From positions 820,501 through 884,500 of the forward strand of contig NC_015318.1 of assembly GCF_000194135.1 (NCBI RefSeq): a stretch of 64,000 bases of DNA, in the 5' to 3' direction. Numbering within the stretch: position 1 is the stretch's first letter; every line of letters starts with the position of its first letter. This document shows, one piece after another, positions 29,559 through 41,402 of the stretch. This stretch comes from Hippea maritima DSM 10411 (lineage in GTDB: Bacteria; Campylobacterota_A; Desulfurellia; Desulfurellales; Hippeaceae). A program made the position numbers and the translations under genes. Under the pieces are notes generated by a model. That model saw only the letters and a program-made list of their open reading frames with translations, was not told where the DNA came from and did no database searches.

Positions 29559-30059
29559 ATGAGGTGGGCTACGACATTTGGCGCAAGTAGGGTAAATAAT
29601 AGTGGATTATACCAAGAAGGTGTGGAATTGGGCAGATTCCTCGTTCAGAAGGGTTATGCTGTTAAATGTGGTGGATATCAAGGACTAATGGAGGCTGTTA
29701 GTAAGGGTGTAAAAGAGGTAGGCGGTGTGGTTGTTGGTATAGGGCTTGAGGCGTTTGAACCTCTAAGGGAAAACAACCCCTATTTAACCAAAAAGATAAT
29801 CGCCAAGGATCTATTTGAAAGATTGAGGCTTTTGGTTAAGGATAGTGAGTTATTTATTGTGCAGCAGGGCAGTATAGGCACGCTAAATGAGTTGTTTTTG
29901 GTTTGGGCGCTTAAATACTCCTTAAAAGAAACATTTAGGGTTTGCTTAATTGGTGAAAAATACTTATCCTTTAAGAATTGTGATTTTATACCTAAGGATA
30001 CCTTAAAGTTTTTAGAGTTATACAAAACACTTGAGGATTTTAAAGGGAGTCTTACCTAA
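29559..30059 (+). CDS. LOG/SLOG-family (TIGR00725-like) protein
   Basis: 166 residues with a Rossmann-like start (ATTFGASRV), CGGYQGLMEAVSKG and a QQGSIGTLNELFLVW segment in place of the PGGxGTxxE motif of LOG phosphoribohydrolases. The degenerate motif makes nucleotide-monophosphate hydrolysis uncertain; nucleotide binding is more likely. It ends 1 bp before the 3' end of the convergent tRNA-Ser. Confidence 0.7.
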   Translation: MRWATTFGASRVNNSGLYQEGVELGRFLVQKGYAVKCGGYQGLMEAVSKGVKEVGGVVVGIGLEAFEPLRENNPYLTKKIIAKDLFERLRLLVKDSELFIVQQGSIGTLNELFLVWALKYSLKETFRVCLIGEKYLSFKNCDFIPKDTLKFLELYKTLEDFKGSLT

Positions 30060-32057: not shown

Positions 32058-33089
32058 ATGATTATTATTATGAAGCGATCGGCAACGGATGATGACATCG
32101 AAAGGGTTAACAAAAAAATTGAGAAGATGGGCTTAAAAGCGCATATTTCAAAAGGGAGCAGCAAAACTGTTATAGGAGTTATTGGAGATGTAGACAGTAA
32201 GATAAAGGAATATGACCCTGTAGCTACTCTGTCGTTGGATAAAGCCGTAGAGAGCGTTCAAAGGGTATCCAAGCCGTATAAATTAGCATCGAGGGAAAGT
32301 AGGAATGACGATACAATTATAGACGTTAAAGGTGTAAAGGTTGGTGGTGATACATTTACTCTCATTGCAGGTCCATGCTCTGTTGAAAACAGAGAACAGG
32401 TATTAACTACAGCAAGGGGCATAAAAAAATGCTCAGCACACATGTTAAGAGGAGGAGCCTTCAAGCCGAGAACGTCACCTTATAGTTTTCAAGGGTTAGG
32501 TGAGGAAGGATTAAAACTCCTAAAAGAGGCTTCCGAAGAAACTGGGCTTCCTGTAGTTACAGAGGTTATGAATCCAAAGGATTTGGATGTAGTACTTAAA
32601 TATGCAGATGTTCTTCAAATAGGAGCAAGAAACATTCAAAACTTCTCCTTACTTAAACTTGTCGGGCAAACAGATAAACCAGTACTCTTAAAAAGAGGTA
32701 TGGCAACAACGATTCAGGAATTCTTAATGAGCGCTGAGTATGTAATGAGTGAAGGTAATGCTGATGTAATGTTATGCGAAAGAGGTATAAGAACATTTGA
32801 AACAGCAACGAGGAATACCTTGGACATATCAGCCGTACCTGTACTAAAAAAGGAGACCCACCTGCCTGTTTTAATAGACCCTTCACATGCCGCAGGCAAA
32901 AGGGATTATGTCCCTGCATTATCCAGAGCTGCCATAGCTGCAGGTGCCGACGGTCTTTTGATAGAAGTTCATTACAATCCTCAAATCGCAGTATCCGATG
33001 CAGCCCAACAGCTTACAATTGAGGAATTTTGCCAGCTGGTTGATGAACTAAGGAAAATAGGGGAAGTGGTGGGTAAAATAATCCAGTAA
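32058..33089 (+). CDS. aroF: DAHP synthase (first step of the shikimate pathway)
   Basis: Condenses PEP and erythrose-4-phosphate to DAHP. 343 residues: an N-terminal ferredoxin-like regulatory domain (~1-70), as in the Thermotoga-type enzyme, then the KDO8P-synthase-like barrel with [54 protein letters not shown] and [19 protein letters not shown]. It is thus probably controlled twice: by aromatic attenuation of transcription and by feedback on the N-terminal domain (family knowledge). Confidence 0.95.
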
Positions 33090-33106
33090 TTAGTTTTTAA
33101 TAACTT

Positions 33107-33135
33107 TTGACATAAAAGGCATAGTTTTCTATATT
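33107..33135 (+). promoter_or_regulatory. Consensus sigma-70 promoter before hom
   Basis: TTGACA (33107-33112), exactly 17 bp, then TATATT (33130-33135); start codon at 33168 with GGGATGGGG in front. Confidence 0.7.
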
Positions 33136-33167
33136 AAACTAACTCTTTGTATGTAAGGGATGGGGTT

Positions 33168-34466
33168 ATGGAAAGTGTGAATGTAGGATTGTTGGGTGTT
33201 GGGACTGTTGGAAGCGGCGTTGTAAATATACTTACACACAATGCTGATATAATAAAAAAGAGGCTTGGATTTGAGCTAAACCTAAAAAAGGTATATGCAA
33301 AACATATAAAGGATGAAGTAAAACCTTTACTTGAAGGTAAGATAGCCTCAAGCTATGAGGAACTATTGGCAGAAGATATCGATATAGTGGTTGAGCTTAT
33401 TGGAGGAACGACCTTTGCAAAAGATTTTATCCTAAAGGCGATCCAAGCCAAAAAAAGCGTAGCTACAGCCAATAAAGCGCTGCTTGCAGAATACGGTTAT
33501 GAGATATTCTCAGAAGCCTTCAATAATAAAGTAGATGTGGGCTACGAAGCTGCTGTTGCCGGTGGAATCCCTATAATAAAGGCTATAAAAGAATCTTTAG
33601 CAGCTAATCATATAAAATCCATTAAAGCTATAGTAAACGGTACCTGTAATTACATCCTATCGGAGATGTTTTATAAGGAAATATCCTTTGAAAAGGCCTT
33701 AAAAGATGCCCAAGAAAAGGGTTTTGCCGAGGCAGACCCCACGTTTGACATAGAGGGTATAGATTCAGCCCATAAGATGGCCATATTAAGTTCTATCTCG
33801 TTTGGCGATAATGTAAAGGCTAAAGATGTTTATACAGAAGGTATAACCAACATAGATTTACTGGATATAAAATTCGCAGATGAGTTTGGTTATAGGATAA
33901 AACTCATTGGTATAACCAATTTAGTTGATGGAAAGATAGATGTAAGGGTGCATCCAACATTGATAAAAAAAGACGACATACTCGCAAAAACAGATGGTGA
34001 ATTCAATGCCATCAAAGTAAAGACAGATATGAACGATGAAACCATTTATATTGGTAAAGGTGCGGGAAGCCTACCAACAGCAAGTGCCGTAGTTGCAGAT
34101 GTCATGGATATAGCAAGAAACATTAAAAATAAAACGAATCTCAGGGTGCCACTTATGGCATTTCCGTTCAATTATGTAAAGAAAAGGGATATCGTAAATA
34201 TAGATGATCTGACCATGAGTTATTACTTGAGATTCACGGTAAAAGACCAGGCGGGTGTTTTATCCAAAATCTCAGGCATTCTTGGAGAATACAATATAAG
34301 CATAAAGAGCGTGGTGCAATTAGGGAAAAACGAGGAATGGGTGCCTTTGATTGTTTTTACACACAAGGCAAGAGAGAAAGATATAAAGCAGGCATTAACA
34401 ATCATAGAAAAACTCGATATTATAAAAGAAAATGTTTTATTGGTGAGAGTAGACGATGAAGAATAA
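33168..34466 (+). CDS. hom: Homoserine dehydrogenase
   Basis: Reduces aspartate semialdehyde to homoserine (Thr/Met branch). 432 residues: NAD(P) motif [11 protein letters not shown], catalytic region with [12 protein letters not shown] and [16 protein letters not shown], and a C-terminal ACT domain (~355-432; [20 protein letters not shown]) for feedback control. The ATG at 33168 is preferred over an upstream TTG because of RBS spacing and the family start. It overlaps the next gene by 11 bp. Confidence 0.95.
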
Positions 34467-36282
34467 AAAATTATGGGGCGGTAGGTTCTCCTCCTCAACC
34501 GATAGCGTTATGGAGACATTTTCCGAATCCATTAGTTTTGACAAAAGGCTTTATGAATACGATATAGCAGGCTCAATAGCCCATGCTCAGATGCTTGCCA
34601 AACAAGGCATTATAAAAGATGAGGAAGCCGATAAAATAATTGAGGGTTTACGCAAAATAAAACGCATGATAGAGGAAGGCGAATTTGAATTTAGAATAGA
34701 AGATGAAGATATACACATGAACATAGAACGCAAGCTTATAGAGATTGTTGGTAAGGTCGGAGGTAAACTACATACAGCAAGAAGCAGAAATGACCAGATA
34801 GCATTAGATATAAGGCTGTTCTTAAGAGATGCTACAATTCACATTATAGATAGACTTACAGATATACTTAAACATTTTCTAAGTCTGGCAGAGAAATATA
34901 TAGATGTTGTTATGCCCGGCTTTACACACCTGCAACATGCACAACCTGTTCTGTTTTCCCATTACATACTTGCCTATTATGAAAAATTTAAAAGAGATAG
35001 GGATAGATTTAGGGATACCTTGAAAAGGATCGATGTATTACCTTTGGGTAGTGGTGCTCTTGCAGGCACAAGTTTTCCCATAGATAGAAAATATGTGGCA
35101 GAACAGTTGGGTTTTTCAAAAATCTCAAGAAACTCTATGGATGCTGTATCTGACAGAGATTTTGCTATTGAGTTTTTATCGGATGTTGCCATATGTGCAA
35201 TGCATGCGTCGAGGTTTGCCGAAGAAATGGTTATATTCTCATCGCAAGAGTTTGACTTTATTGAGCTACCCGATGAGTTTTGCACTGGCTCAAGCATAAT
35301 GCCACAGAAGAAAAACCCGGATGCTATGGAGTTGATACGGGGTAAAACAGCAAGAACATACGGAAACCTTATTCAGATGCTAGTTTTAATGAAAGCGCTG
35401 CCTTTAACATACAACAGGGATATGCAAGAAGACAAGGAATCACTTTTTGACTCAATCGATACAATAATTGGTACATTAGATGTGTTAAGTGGGGTTATAC
35501 CCAAAATCAAGCCAAAAATAGAATCACTACAAAAAGCTCTTGATAAGGGTTTTATAACAGCAACAGATTTAGCGGACTATCTGGCAAAGAAAGGTATGCC
35601 TTTTAGGGAAGCCCACAAAGTAGTAGGCCAAATCGTTGCTTATGCAGAAAAAAACAACAAAGAGCTAAACGAGATATCAATAGAAGAGTTGAAGTCGTTT
35701 TCAGATTTAATAGAGAACGATGTTTTGGATGTGTTGCATTACAGAAAGGCTGTAAACTCAAGAACAAGCTACGGGGGAACGGCAAAAGATAATGTATTAA
35801 ATATAATCGAAGAAATTAAAAAGGAGCTTTCGATAAGACAGGATGGCAATACTGTGAAATGTCCACGTTGTGGCTATCCGGTTAAGGTTTACAAAAATCC
35901 TATACCCACCACTGACATAATAATAAAGGTTGATGATAAAATTGTTCTGATAAAGAGAAAGAATCCACCGTATGGGTGGGCAATTCCTGGTGGCTTTATA
36001 GATTACGGTGAATCAGCTGAACAGGCTGCAATCAGGGAAGCAAAAGAGGAGACGGGTTTGGATGTGGAGTTGGAGAGTGTTCTTGGGGTTTACTCAGATC
36101 CAGACAGAGACCCAAGGCAGCATACTATAACAACGGTTTTTATAGCTAAAGCAAAAGGTAGACCAAAGGCTGGGGATGATGCTGAGAGTCTTGGTCTTTT
36201 TGATAAAGATAATTTACCTGAGACAATAGCATTTGACCATAAAAAAATACTTAAGGACTTCTTTGAAAAGCATAATGTCTGA
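34456..36282 (+). CDS. argH: Argininosuccinate lyase fused to a Nudix hydrolase
   Basis: 608 residues in one uninterrupted frame. Residues ~1-462 are a full argininosuccinate lyase ([24 protein letters not shown], the signature [20 protein letters not shown]), which splits argininosuccinate to arginine and fumarate. Residues ~468-485 hold a CPRCGYPV zinc-knuckle-like start, and ~485-608 a Nudix domain with a complete box (GGFIDYGE...[10 protein letters not shown]) and the [16 protein letters not shown] segment of ADP-ribose pyrophosphatases. Stand-alone ArgH is ~460 residues, so the fusion is unusual. It overlaps hom and recJ. Confidence 0.93.
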
Positions 36283-37984
36283 AACCCTTGAATTAAAAAG
36301 TACAGGCGGTGCTAAGAAAAAGCTTACAATAAAAAATAGGTGCTTCTCAAATAATATTGTCAATATAGGCAATGTGAAATTATTTGAGGCCACCCAGAAG
36401 ATATTAGAGAATAGGAATATAAAAACCCAAAGTCAAATAAAGAATTTTTTATACCCATCTTTATCACAACTCTATAACCCTTTCCTGCTTAAAGATATGG
36501 ATATAGCCATAGATAGGATTGCAAGAGCCGTTTATAACTCAGAAAGAATATTCATTGTAGGAGATTACGACACGGACGGTGTAACATCAACGAGTTTGCT
36601 TTTGAGATTTTTTAAAGAAATTGGAGTAAAAGCTGGATTCTATATACCTACAAGGGATGATGGATATGGTTTGAGCCTTGAGGCTATAAAAAAAGCTATA
36701 AACGAGAAAGCTAAGCTGATAATAACAGTAGACAACGGCATTACAAGCATAGATGAAGTAGAGTTTGCAAAAACTGTTGGTATAGACGTTATCATAACAG
36801 ACCATCACGAACCTCAAGATGTACTACCCAAGGCCTTTGCGGTAGTTGACCCAAAAAGAAACGATTCAAAGTTCCCGTTCAAGGAATTATCCGGTGTAGG
36901 TGTGGCATTCAACCTTATAATGGCACTGAGGAATAAACTTAGAAAAGATGGTTTTTTTAGAGGTAAAGGGGAACCGAATCTAAAAAAATATTTAGACTTG
37001 GTAGCTTTAGGAACTCTCGCTGACATCGTTCCTCTACTGGATGAAAATAGGGTTTGTGTAAAAATAGGATTGTTCAATAAAAACCATTCTACTGTTGGTT
37101 TGGAATTACTCAAGAAGGTTTCAGGTATAGAAGGCTGCCTAACATCTAAACATGTTGGCTTTGTCATAGCTCCAAGAATTAACGCAGCAGGGAGATTGTC
37201 GGATGCTTCAATTGTAGTTGACATGTTTTTAAAAGATGATGCTAAAGAAGCAGAAACAATAGCCCTAAAATTAGAAGAAATAAACAATCAAAGAAGGAAA
37301 TTGCAACTAAAGATAATAAACGAAGTAGAAAAATATGCCAGAAATTTAAGTAGTAACGTTATTGTTGCGGCCAAAGAGGGATGGCATAAAGGTGTAATAG
37401 GCATAGTGGCTAATGCTATAGCCTATAAATTTAAAAAACCAACTATAATCATAAGCAAAGAGAATAAAATCAGCATAGGTAGCGGAAGGAGTATTGGAGA
37501 GATAGACTTATTCTCTGCTATAAAAGAGACATCAGATATACTTGAAAGATTCGGCGGGCATAAAATGGCTGTTGGCATTACAATAAAAAATGATAGAATT
37601 GAGGAGTTTTCAGAGAGACTGAATGAAATTATCTCAACTAAGTATTCAGAGGAATCCGCAACAGCAAAATACGAGGCTGATTGCGAGGTGCTTCTATCAA
37701 TATTTAATAGAAGGTTTGTTGAAGAACTATCATTGCTCGAACCTCATGGACCTTTAAATGAGGAACCGTTGTTTTTTGCAAGAAACGTTGTTGTTAAAGA
37801 TGAGGCCATGATACTGGACAAATACCCTAAATATCTTTTAGATGATGGAACTTCAAGCCTATGGATGGTTAGCTTCGAAGGTGTTAAGCTTGATGTTGGG
37901 GGGGTTTATGATGTTTTGTTTTCGGCCTATATAAAAAACGGATATATGTCCTTCAGCCTAAAGGACGCCTTTTATGTAATTTAA
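36275..37984 (+). CDS. recJ: Single-stranded-DNA exonuclease RecJ
   Basis: 5'-3' exonuclease for recombination and mismatch repair. About 569 residues from the ATG at 36275 (8-bp overlap with argH); an in-frame start 14 codons earlier would lie deep in argH. DHH motifs: [35 protein letters not shown]; then the DHHA1 domain with [14 protein letters not shown] and [12 protein letters not shown]...FGGHKMAVG. All catalytic Asp/His positions look intact. Confidence 0.95.
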
Positions 37985-37994
37985 GGAGGGAAAT

Positions 37995-40172
37995 GTGAGA
38001 CTATCGGAAAATGCTCTTATTGTTTTAAAGAGTAGATACTTACAAAAAGATTCTGATGGCAACATAATAGAAACACCGGAGCAGCTTATAGAAAGAGTAG
38101 CAAAAGCTATAGCTAAAGCCGACGAAAATTACTCAGCAACCAAGGAAGAAATAGAAAAAACAACGAATGAGTTTATGGATGTAATGTCTGAACTTAAGTT
38201 TTTACCCAATACACCTACTTTAGTTAACGCAGGACGCCCTTTAGGTCAATTATCCGCATGCTTTGTGCTTCCAATAAATGATAGCATGGATAGCATTTTC
38301 GACGCCGTAAAAGCAACGGCATTGATACATAAATCTGGTGGTGGAACAGGCTTTTCTTTTTCCAGACTTAGACCTAAAAACGACATAGTAAGTTCTACGA
38401 TGGGTGTTTCCAGTGGGCCTGTCTCCTTTATGAAGGTTTTTGACTGTGCAACCGAAGCAATTAAACAAGGCGGCGTAAGACGTGGAGCAAACATGGGCAT
38501 CCTGAGAGTTGACCATCCAGATATACTCGATTTTATACATTGCAAGGATAAAGAAGGGGAGTTTTCAAATTTTAATATATCTGTAGCTATAACAAATAAG
38601 TTTTTAGATGCCTTAAAGAACGATGAAGAGTATGAACTAATAAACCCCAGAAACAAAGAAGTAGTTGGTAAACTAAAAGCTTCGTTTGTTTGGGATGAAA
38701 TAGCCAAAAGCGCCCATAAGAGTGGAGAACCTGGCATAATTTTCATAGACAGAATAAATGAAAAGCACCCGCTATCAAAAGAAGTAGGGGAAATAGAAAG
38801 CACGAATCCATGCGGTGAACAACCACTTCTACCCTTTGAAAGTTGTAATCTTGGTTCAATAAACCTTGGTAAGTTTGTAAAAGGCAAATCTATCGACTGG
38901 GATAACCTAAAAAAGACTGTATTTACGGCTGTCCATTTTCTTGATAACGTTATAGACGTAAACATATACCCATTAAAAAAGATAGAAGAAAATACCAAAA
39001 AGAATAGAAAAGTAGGCCTGGGTGTCATGGGTTTTGCCGACATGCTTATAGATCTCGGCATCCCTTATGATAGCAAAGAAGCCATAAAATTAGCAGAAGA
39101 TGTAATGTGTTTTATACAAAAAATATCCAAAGAGGCATCGAGTGAACTCGCAAAAAAGAGAGGAAACTTCCCTAATTATAAATACAGCATCTATTCAAAA
39201 GAAAACATACCTATGAGGAATGCTACAACAACAACCATTGCACCTACCGGATCAATCTCTATGATAGCAGATGCATCGAGTGGAATAGAGCCTATTTTCG
39301 CCCTTGCTTATTATAAACAGGTTTTAGACGGAAAAAGGCTGCCTTATGTATACGAAAGATTGTTCAATGTATTGAAGGATAGAGGCATATACACAGAGAA
39401 ACTTGCAGAAAGAATAATTGATAACAGGGGCAGCCTAAAGGGTATAGAGGAAATACCGGAAGACATAAGAAAACTCTTTGTTACAGCCATGGATATAACC
39501 TATAAGGCCCATATAGATATTCAGGCAGCATTTCAAAAATACACAGACAATGCTGTATCAAAAACCATTAACATGCCAAATTCAGCTACAGTTGTAGATG
39601 TAAAAGAAGCCTACAACTATGCATACAAAAATGGACTGAAAGGAATAACGGTTTACAGGGATGGCTCAAGACAAGAGCAGGTATTGGTTGTAGCTAAAAA
39701 AGAGGAGAAAAAATTACCAGAAAACTTCACAAGACCCGTTGTGCTCAATGGATTTACAGAAAAGGTGAAGACTTCAAGGGGAACCCTATATGTTACCATA
39801 AACACAGTAAACGATGACCCTATAGAGGTATTTGCCAACATAGGAAAATCAGGCGGAGACATATCTGCATTAAGCGAAGCCATAGGAAGACTAATCTCAA
39901 TAGCACTTCAAAACGGTGTCCACGTTAAAAACATAGTAAACACATTGATAAGCATAACTGGGGCTCAGCCTATTTGGAGTAACGGTAGGCTAATTAAATC
40001 GGTTCCTGATGCAATAGCTCAAGTCTTAAGAGACCATTTTTTAAGAAACGGAAACGAAAAAGAACCACCTAAAGTAATAGCGGGAGAGGAGTGTCCGGAA
40101 TGCGGCTCTCCTCTTGAGATAGTAGAAGGATGCGCCGTTTGCAGAAATTGCGGATATTCAAGATGCGGTTAA
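37995..40172 (+). CDS. nrdJ: Adenosylcobalamin-dependent (class II) ribonucleotide reductase
   Basis: Makes deoxyribonucleotides, oxygen-independent, using coenzyme B12. 725 residues: SACFVLPINDSMDS, HKSGGGTGFSFSRLRP, the active-site NPCGEQPLLPFESCNLGSINL region and PTGSISMIADASSGIEP. A C-terminal TSCPD region (~590-680) and a Cys-rich tail (CPEC...CRNCGYSRCG) should re-reduce the active site. GTG start after AAGGAGG. No N-terminal ATP cone is apparent. Confidence 0.95.
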   Translation: MRLSENALIVLKSRYLQKDSDGNIIETPEQLIERVAKAIAKADENYSATKEEIEKTTNEFMDVMSELKFLPNTPTLVNAGRPLGQLSACFVLPINDSMDSIFDAVKATALIHKSGGGTGFSFSRLRPKNDIVSSTMGVSSGPVSFMKVFDCATEAIKQGGVRRGANMGILRVDHPDILDFIHCKDKEGEFSNFNISVAITNKFLDALKNDEEYELINPRNKEVVGKLKASFVWDEIAKSAHKSGEPGIIFIDRINEKHPLSKEVGEIESTNPCGEQPLLPFESCNLGSINLGKFVKGKSIDWDNLKKTVFTAVHFLDNVIDVNIYPLKKIEENTKKNRKVGLGVMGFADMLIDLGIPYDSKEAIKLAEDVMCFIQKISKEASSELAKKRGNFPNYKYSIYSKENIPMRNATTTTIAPTGSISMIADASSGIEPIFALAYYKQVLDGKRLPYVYERLFNVLKDRGIYTEKLAERIIDNRGSLKGIEEIPEDIRKLFVTAMDITYKAHIDIQAAFQKYTDNAVSKTINMPNSATVVDVKEAYNYAYKNGLKGITVYRDGSRQEQVLVVAKKEEKKLPENFTRPVVLNGFTEKVKTSRGTLYVTINTVNDDPIEVFANIGKSGGDISALSEAIGRLISIALQNGVHVKNIVNTLISITGAQPIWSNGRLIKSVPDAIAQVLRDHFLRNGNEKEPPKVIAGEECPECGSPLEIVEGCAVCRNCGYSRCG

Positions 40173-40181
40173 GGAGGAATG

Positions 40182-41402
40182 ATGGACTTAGAAAAAGAAG
40201 TTCAAAAACAGTTTGATACAATAAAAAGAGGAACAGCTGAAATTATAGATAAAGAAGAATTAAAAGATAAATTAAGGGATAGTATAAAAATGGGCAAACC
40301 TTTAAAAATAAAGGCCGGATTTGACCCAACAGCCCCGGATTTACATTTAGGACATACCGTACTGATACAAAAACTCAAACAGTTTCAAGATTTAGGGCAT
40401 GAAGTATATTTTTTAATTGGTGATTTTACTGGAATGATAGGAGACCCAACAGGAAAAAGCGAGACAAGGAAAGCCTTAAGCAAAGAAGAGGTTGAAAAAA
40501 ATGCACAAACATACAAAGATCAGATATTCAAAATCCTCGATAAGGACAAAACAAAAGTAGTGTATAACTCCCAGTGGTGCTCAAAACTCAATGCAGTCGA
40601 CATGATAAAATTGGCATCCACTATGACCGTGGCAAGAATGCTCGAGAGGGATGATTTCTCAAAAAGATTTAGCTCAAACAAGCCAATATCTATACATGAA
40701 TTTTTATATCCCCTTCTTCAGGGGTATGACTCTGTGGCTTTAGAGGCTGATGTTGAGCTCGGCGGAACAGATCAAAAGTTTAATTTGCTCGTTGGAAGAC
40801 ACCTACAAAAACTCCAAGGCCAAAGGCCACAGACAGTTATTATGATGCCTATATTGGAAGGGCTTGACGGCGTTCAAAAAATGAGTAAGTCATTGGGAAA
40901 TTATGTAGGCATAACCGATGAGCCTAACGATATGTATGGAAAAATTATGTCCATATCCGATGAGTTGATGTGGCGCTATTATGAACTTTTAAGCGATAGA
41001 GATTTGTCCGAAATTAACCAAATGAAAGAGAATGTAGAAACAGGTAAACTACACCCCAAAAAAGCCAAAGAGATGCTTGCCTTTGAGATAACTAAACGCT
41101 TCCACGGAGAAGAGAAAGCAAAAGAGGCAGCTAAGTTTTTTGAAGAAATGTTTAAAAAGAAAGAAATCCCTGACGAAATTGAAGAGATAGCCCTACAGCT
41201 TGAAGATGATGAAGTTTGGATATGTCATCTACTAAAGAATATAGGCTTTGTTAAAAGCTCATCTGAGGCAAGAAGGATGATAAAGTCAAATGCTGTTTCT
41301 ATAGATTCAAATAAAGTAACAGATGACAGTTTGAAATTAAAAAAGGGTAGCTATATAGTAAAAGTAGGAAAAAGAAAAATAGCTAAGGTGAGTCTGAAAT
41401 AA
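40182..41402 (+). CDS. tyrS: Tyrosyl-tRNA synthetase
   Basis: Charges tRNA-Tyr. About 406 residues with a HIGH-type motif (PDLHLGHT), [11 protein letters not shown] (~232) and a C-terminal S4 RNA-binding domain ([18 protein letters not shown], ~343-361). The second of two adjacent in-frame ATGs is chosen because GGAGG is 4 bp away instead of 1. Ends on the first base of coaX. Confidence 0.95.

Follow-up and report, generated by a model that had tools for sequence, protein, structure and literature searches.

A single reading frame joins argininosuccinate lyase to a Nudix hydrolase

Why should the last enzyme of arginine synthesis share one polypeptide with a Nudix hydrolase? The question was raised by a gene of Hippea maritima, a thermophilic bacterium of hot vents. 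The gene lies in the window analysed here, a stretch of 64,000 nucleotides to which all coordinates refer. Its ORF (34456..36282, + strand) has 608 codons plus a stop codon and no internal stops, and the 608-aa product has a computed mass of 68,992 Da (69.0 kDa). A sequence-only reading of this DNA had described one 608-codon frame holding a full argininosuccinate lyase (ArgH) and an intact Nudix box. Both descriptions were confirmed: the NCBIfam argH model TIGR00838 matched aa 6-458 with 644.1 bits (cut-off, 279.5; profile positions 1-454 of 455), and the Nudix box GX5EX7REUXEEXGU was complete at aa 513-535. Pfam placed Lyase_1 at aa 9-303, ASL_C2 at aa 366-434 and NUDIX (PF00293; 86.9 bits, cut-off 21.1) at aa 487-602; the intact Nudix domain extended over approximately aa 481-605. 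The features of the locus were as follows.

33147..34466, + strand: homoserine dehydrogenase gene (hom), upstream, from Pfam; overlaps argH by 11 bases
34456..36282, + strand: argH-nudix fusion gene; ORF with Pfam and NCBIfam matches, common to 24 of 25 phylum genomes
34456..35832, + strand: argininosuccinate lyase half, aa 1-459; TIGR00838, Lyase_1, ASL_C2 and motifs
35833..35895, + strand: variable linker, about aa 460-480, including CPRC at 35860-35871; low pLDDT and poor conservation
35896..36279, + strand: Nudix hydrolase half, about aa 481-608, of predicted ADP-ribose type; PF00293, best solved relative 2yyh
35992..36060, + strand: Nudix box, aa 513-535; catalytic RE..EE invariant
36094..36123, + strand: X-loop, aa 547-556, candidate ADP-ribose specificity loop; SxPxRDxRxH pattern
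36233..37984, + strand: recJ-like DHH exonuclease gene, downstream, start codon uncertain; Pfam DHH/DHHA1/RecJ_OB; overlaps the 3' end of the fusion gene

ArgH produces arginine and fumarate, and known ArgH enzymes are tetramers. The fusion matched the ArgH model (TIGR00838) over its full length and retained HTARSRNDQ (aa 106-114) and the signature loop GSSxMPxKxN (within aa 278-289), which is conserved in fused and unfused ArgH; it differed in having ~150 extra C-terminal residues, comprising the linker and the Nudix domain. A whole-genome search of H. maritima revealed no second ArgH-grade match; argG was also found. An additional enzyme is likewise attached to the C-terminus of ArgH in the bifunctional ArgH-N-acetylglutamate synthase (PRK12308 / NF008964) of marine gammaproteobacteria. 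In that protein ArgH is joined to an acetyltransferase from its own pathway, whereas the partner in H. maritima is an unrelated Nudix domain. NF008964 was rejected as the identity of our protein: it scored 531 bits against a cut-off of 657, and only its ArgH part was matched (profile positions 3-461 of 624).

The fusion is conserved across the host phylum

The sequence-only reading had proposed a search for the fusion in relatives. The same joined frame was present in 24 of the 25 genomes of the host phylum that were examined, in four families and with full-length identity ranging from 91% to 54%; some of these 24 copies were cut by contig ends or split across two contigs. No split ArgH/Nudix member was seen in the phylum. 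The one genome without the fusion (G023) had no ArgH-grade match at all. A different stand-alone Nudix, ~40% identical, was observed in G023 and in a second genome of family f3, G019 (L055 and L056, respectively).

Purifying selection acts on both halves: dN/dS was ~0.04-0.16 in the Nudix portion and 0.01-0.09 in the ArgH portion, with dS saturated in some pairs. Within the Nudix box, the catalytic RE..EE was invariant in the aligned fusions and the final glycine was replaced by S or N in some of them; SxPxRDxRxH was retained in all 24. The same joined frame in 24 separate genomes, spread over four families and identities as low as 54%, and the selection on both halves thus rule out an error of sequencing or assembly that removed a stop codon between two genes. 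A frame break near position 35820, a possibility raised by the earlier reading, is excluded by the same open junction in the 23 other genomes.

hom lay directly upstream in 22 of the 24 fusion loci, the remaining two beginning at contig ends. recJ lay downstream in 20, the exceptions being three loci of family f4 and one contig end. Inspection by eye of positions 32058-41402 (+) showed genes for DAHP synthase, hom, argH-nudix, recJ, an adenosylcobalamin-type ribonucleotide reductase and tyrosyl-tRNA synthetase. These genes follow one another on the same strand, with overlaps or near-overlaps between several of them, and likely form one long co-directional cluster. Elsewhere in the window (29559-30059, +), a LOG/lysine-decarboxylase-like protein was noted by eye to have QQGSIGTLNE in place of the usual PGGxGTxxE; judged by this motif, it is possibly altered or inactive.

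The two halves are joined by a variable linker

Between the C-terminal helix of ArgH and the Nudix domain lies a variable linker. Its sequence was poorly conserved among the fusions, and AlphaFold predicted it to be flexible (pLDDT ~44 at aa 461-480, low at 461-468 and 473-480). The "Cys-knuckle" described earlier at this position was overstated: one cysteine pair, CPRC at aa 469-472, does exist, but it is the only CxxC in the H. maritima protein, and family f4 has none. A complete four-ligand zinc knuckle, with two CxxC-type pairs, is therefore unsupported. The linker CxxC was found in 21/24 fusions and also in 23 of 99 stand-alone Nudix relatives; the pair therefore probably came along with the Nudix gene.

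Might the halves be separate in the cell, either because translation also begins internally or because cleavage at the linker releases the Nudix protein? In H. maritima an in-frame GTG at the junction is preceded by an AAGGAG-like sequence, and the predicted flexibility of the linker is consistent with cleavage there. However, only 2 of the 24 members had a junction start codon preceded by an SD-like sequence, and at different places. A conserved internal start was rejected on this basis, and we consider separation of the halves very unlikely.

The Nudix domain has unfused relatives and other fusion partners

A genome contig scan yielded 80 relatives of the Nudix half, including one from Desulfurellales, and the ArgH fusion occurred only in the latter. 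No argH was found beside the Nudix gene in the flanks retrieved for the 79 other loci and for 20 loci from the phylum of G034. The unfused, argH-free relatives came from Nitrospirota, Thermodesulfobacteriota, Cyanobacteriota and others. No ArgH-Nudix fusion was found in other phyla in this survey, which was uneven (two of the phylum searches covered one genome each); most frames had the length of a stand-alone gene, and the two longest Nudix frames checked were upstream read-through of stand-alone genes. The flanks of the stand-alone genes, inspected by eye, revealed no consistent neighbour: malQ-like genes were seen in cyanobacteria, typA-like genes in Desulfobulbaceae and miaA/hfq-like genes in Nitrospirae.

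In a tree of Nudix domains from which three distant paralogues were left out, the fused domains formed one side of a branch with SH-aLRT 100; an earlier tree, distorted by these paralogues, was superseded. Because the fused domains form one group, a single fusion event in the phylum ancestor is likely and is the simplest reading of the tree. argH and nudix would have been adjacent before that event.

The same Nudix subfamily was found C-terminal to macrodomains (L105:3335-4390, L135:1335-2285 and L157:3452-4399; hosts include Omnitrophota) and to an inositol monophosphatase (L106:3188-4405, Thermodesulfobacterium thermophilum). These proteins resemble the ArgH fusion in the position of the Nudix domain and differ from it in their N-terminal domains and phyla. 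Counting ArgH, macrodomain and inositol monophosphatase, the subfamily thus has at least three unrelated fusion partners. It therefore resembles a fusion-tolerant module, and its tie to the sole ArgH needs no metabolic link.

The X-loop and genomic context favour ADP-ribose as substrate

The Nudix half modelled on its own had a mean pLDDT of 88.1. Structure comparison matched this model to Aquifex 2yyh (Z 23.1, rmsd 2.4, 131 aligned), and the third structural match was the NrtR Nudix domain with bound ADP-ribose (Z 19.0, rmsd 1.9, 128 aligned). 2yyh was also the closest solved relative by sequence; "8-oxo-dGTPase domain" appears only in its label. The third-best solved sequence relative was 3I9X from Listeria innocua (E 9.5e-18), which has the PxRDPR loop in common with the fusion. 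This Listeria protein (Q92EH0) hydrolyses ADP-ribose with a kcat/Km of 1.85e6 M-1 s-1 (PMC5158307). The X-loop is the element that gives specificity in Nudix enzymes (PMC5389931), and PxRDPR of the fusion lies approximately at the X-loop position given there. In the ADP-ribose pyrophosphatase NadM of Francisella (2qjt/2r5w), PDRSVRGRTIS was aligned at the X-loop and has the pattern PDRxxR. Thus 3I9X, the NadM Nudix domains (2qjo, 2qjt) and 2yyh have a Nudix box and a PxR..R-type X-loop as in the fusion, and the fold of the fusion's Nudix domain resembles those of 2qjo, 2qjt and 2yyh with Z of 16.5-23.1. None of these proteins carries ArgH; the fusion partner in NadM is NMN adenylyltransferase. 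The description of the loop as ADP-ribose-type in the sequence-only reading is supported by the motif in 24/24 fusions and its likeness to 3I9X and NadM.

Macrodomains bind or process ADP-ribose derivatives. The H. maritima genome contained three SIR2-family matches, one macro gene and just one other detectable PF00293 Nudix. The latter carries the SFPGG motif typical of CoA pyrophosphatases and thus looks like a CoA hydrolase. The X-loop and structural matches, the macrodomain fusions of the subfamily, and the SIR2 and macro genes together with a CoAse-like other Nudix therefore favour ADP-ribose as the predicted substrate of the Nudix half. The inositol monophosphatase protein, one of the four fusions with other partners, gives no pointer to ADP-ribose, and an enzyme outside PF00293 could handle ADP-ribose in H. 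maritima.

The Nudix half may instead clean other nucleotides, such as oxidised (d)NTPs (as in MutT), dinucleoside polyphosphates or NADH. The label of the best PDB match, 2yyh, is in keeping with this possibility, and Nudix enzymes are often promiscuous. We consider it unlikely, however: the PxRDPR X-loop is common to a measured ADP-ribose hydrolase, the subfamily is fused to macrodomains, and the NADH motif SQPWPFPQS (PMC5389931) is absent from the fusion protein.

Discussion

We propose, with a probability of about two in three, that an ancient fusion ties a predicted housekeeping ADP-ribose hydrolase to the cell's sole ArgH, forming two independent enzymes on one 69-kDa chain. The N-terminal half would be the only argininosuccinate lyase of the cell, and the C-terminal pyrophosphohydrolase would cleave ADP-ribose to AMP and ribose-5-phosphate. 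Its role would most likely be the clearing of ADP-ribose from NAD turnover, the sources being sirtuin and macrodomain products and, in a thermophile, NAD broken down by heat. In the phylum ancestor, the stop codon between neighbouring argH and nudix genes may have been lost, and the fusion may have been retained since both activities were needed and mutually tolerated. Known ArgH enzymes being tetramers, four flexibly tethered Nudix domains would be expected per assembly.

The two activities have no intermediate in common, and we do not postulate catalytic coupling. This agrees with the earlier remark that they have no evident metabolic link. Of the three arrangements then suggested, moonlighting and channelling find no support, given the lack of a shared metabolite, the linker predicted to be flexible and the relatives outside the phylum without argH in the flanks retrieved; the third, a fusion fixed without a direct metabolic link, fits best.

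A rival reading is regulatory coupling: the Nudix domain might bind or cleave ADP-ribose, or a different NAD metabolite, and thereby tune the activity or assembly of ArgH, by analogy with NrtR and AraR, in which Nudix domains serve as sensors. Sensor domains of this kind, NrtR included, rank among the nearest structures, and the fusion has persisted for as long as the phylum has existed, no split member having been seen; such long retention could reflect a coupling that is not visible in these data. To our knowledge, a regulatory link of NAD/ADP-ribose status to arginine synthesis is described in no bacterium, and coupling, if true, would establish one. However, every aligned fusion retains an intact catalytic RE..EE, unlike a pure sensor, the linker is variable and predicted to be disordered, and the Nudix domain has no link to argH outside the phylum. 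We therefore regard regulatory coupling as quite unlikely. The fusion itself is real and ancient, and two independent enzymes in a housekeeping arrangement is probably the correct reading.

No published ArgH-Nudix fusion was found in the literature searched, which covers few subscription papers; as far as searched, the architecture is new, and both enzymes are of known kinds. The macrodomain partners lead to a concrete prediction, ADP-ribose as substrate, for a widespread Nudix group that includes the solved Aquifex 2yyh. Nearly every genome examined from one phylum has this ancient two-enzyme fusion, which was found nowhere else in the searches made. It is usable as a marker of the phylum and provides a test case for the idea that a gene fusion necessarily implies a metabolic link.
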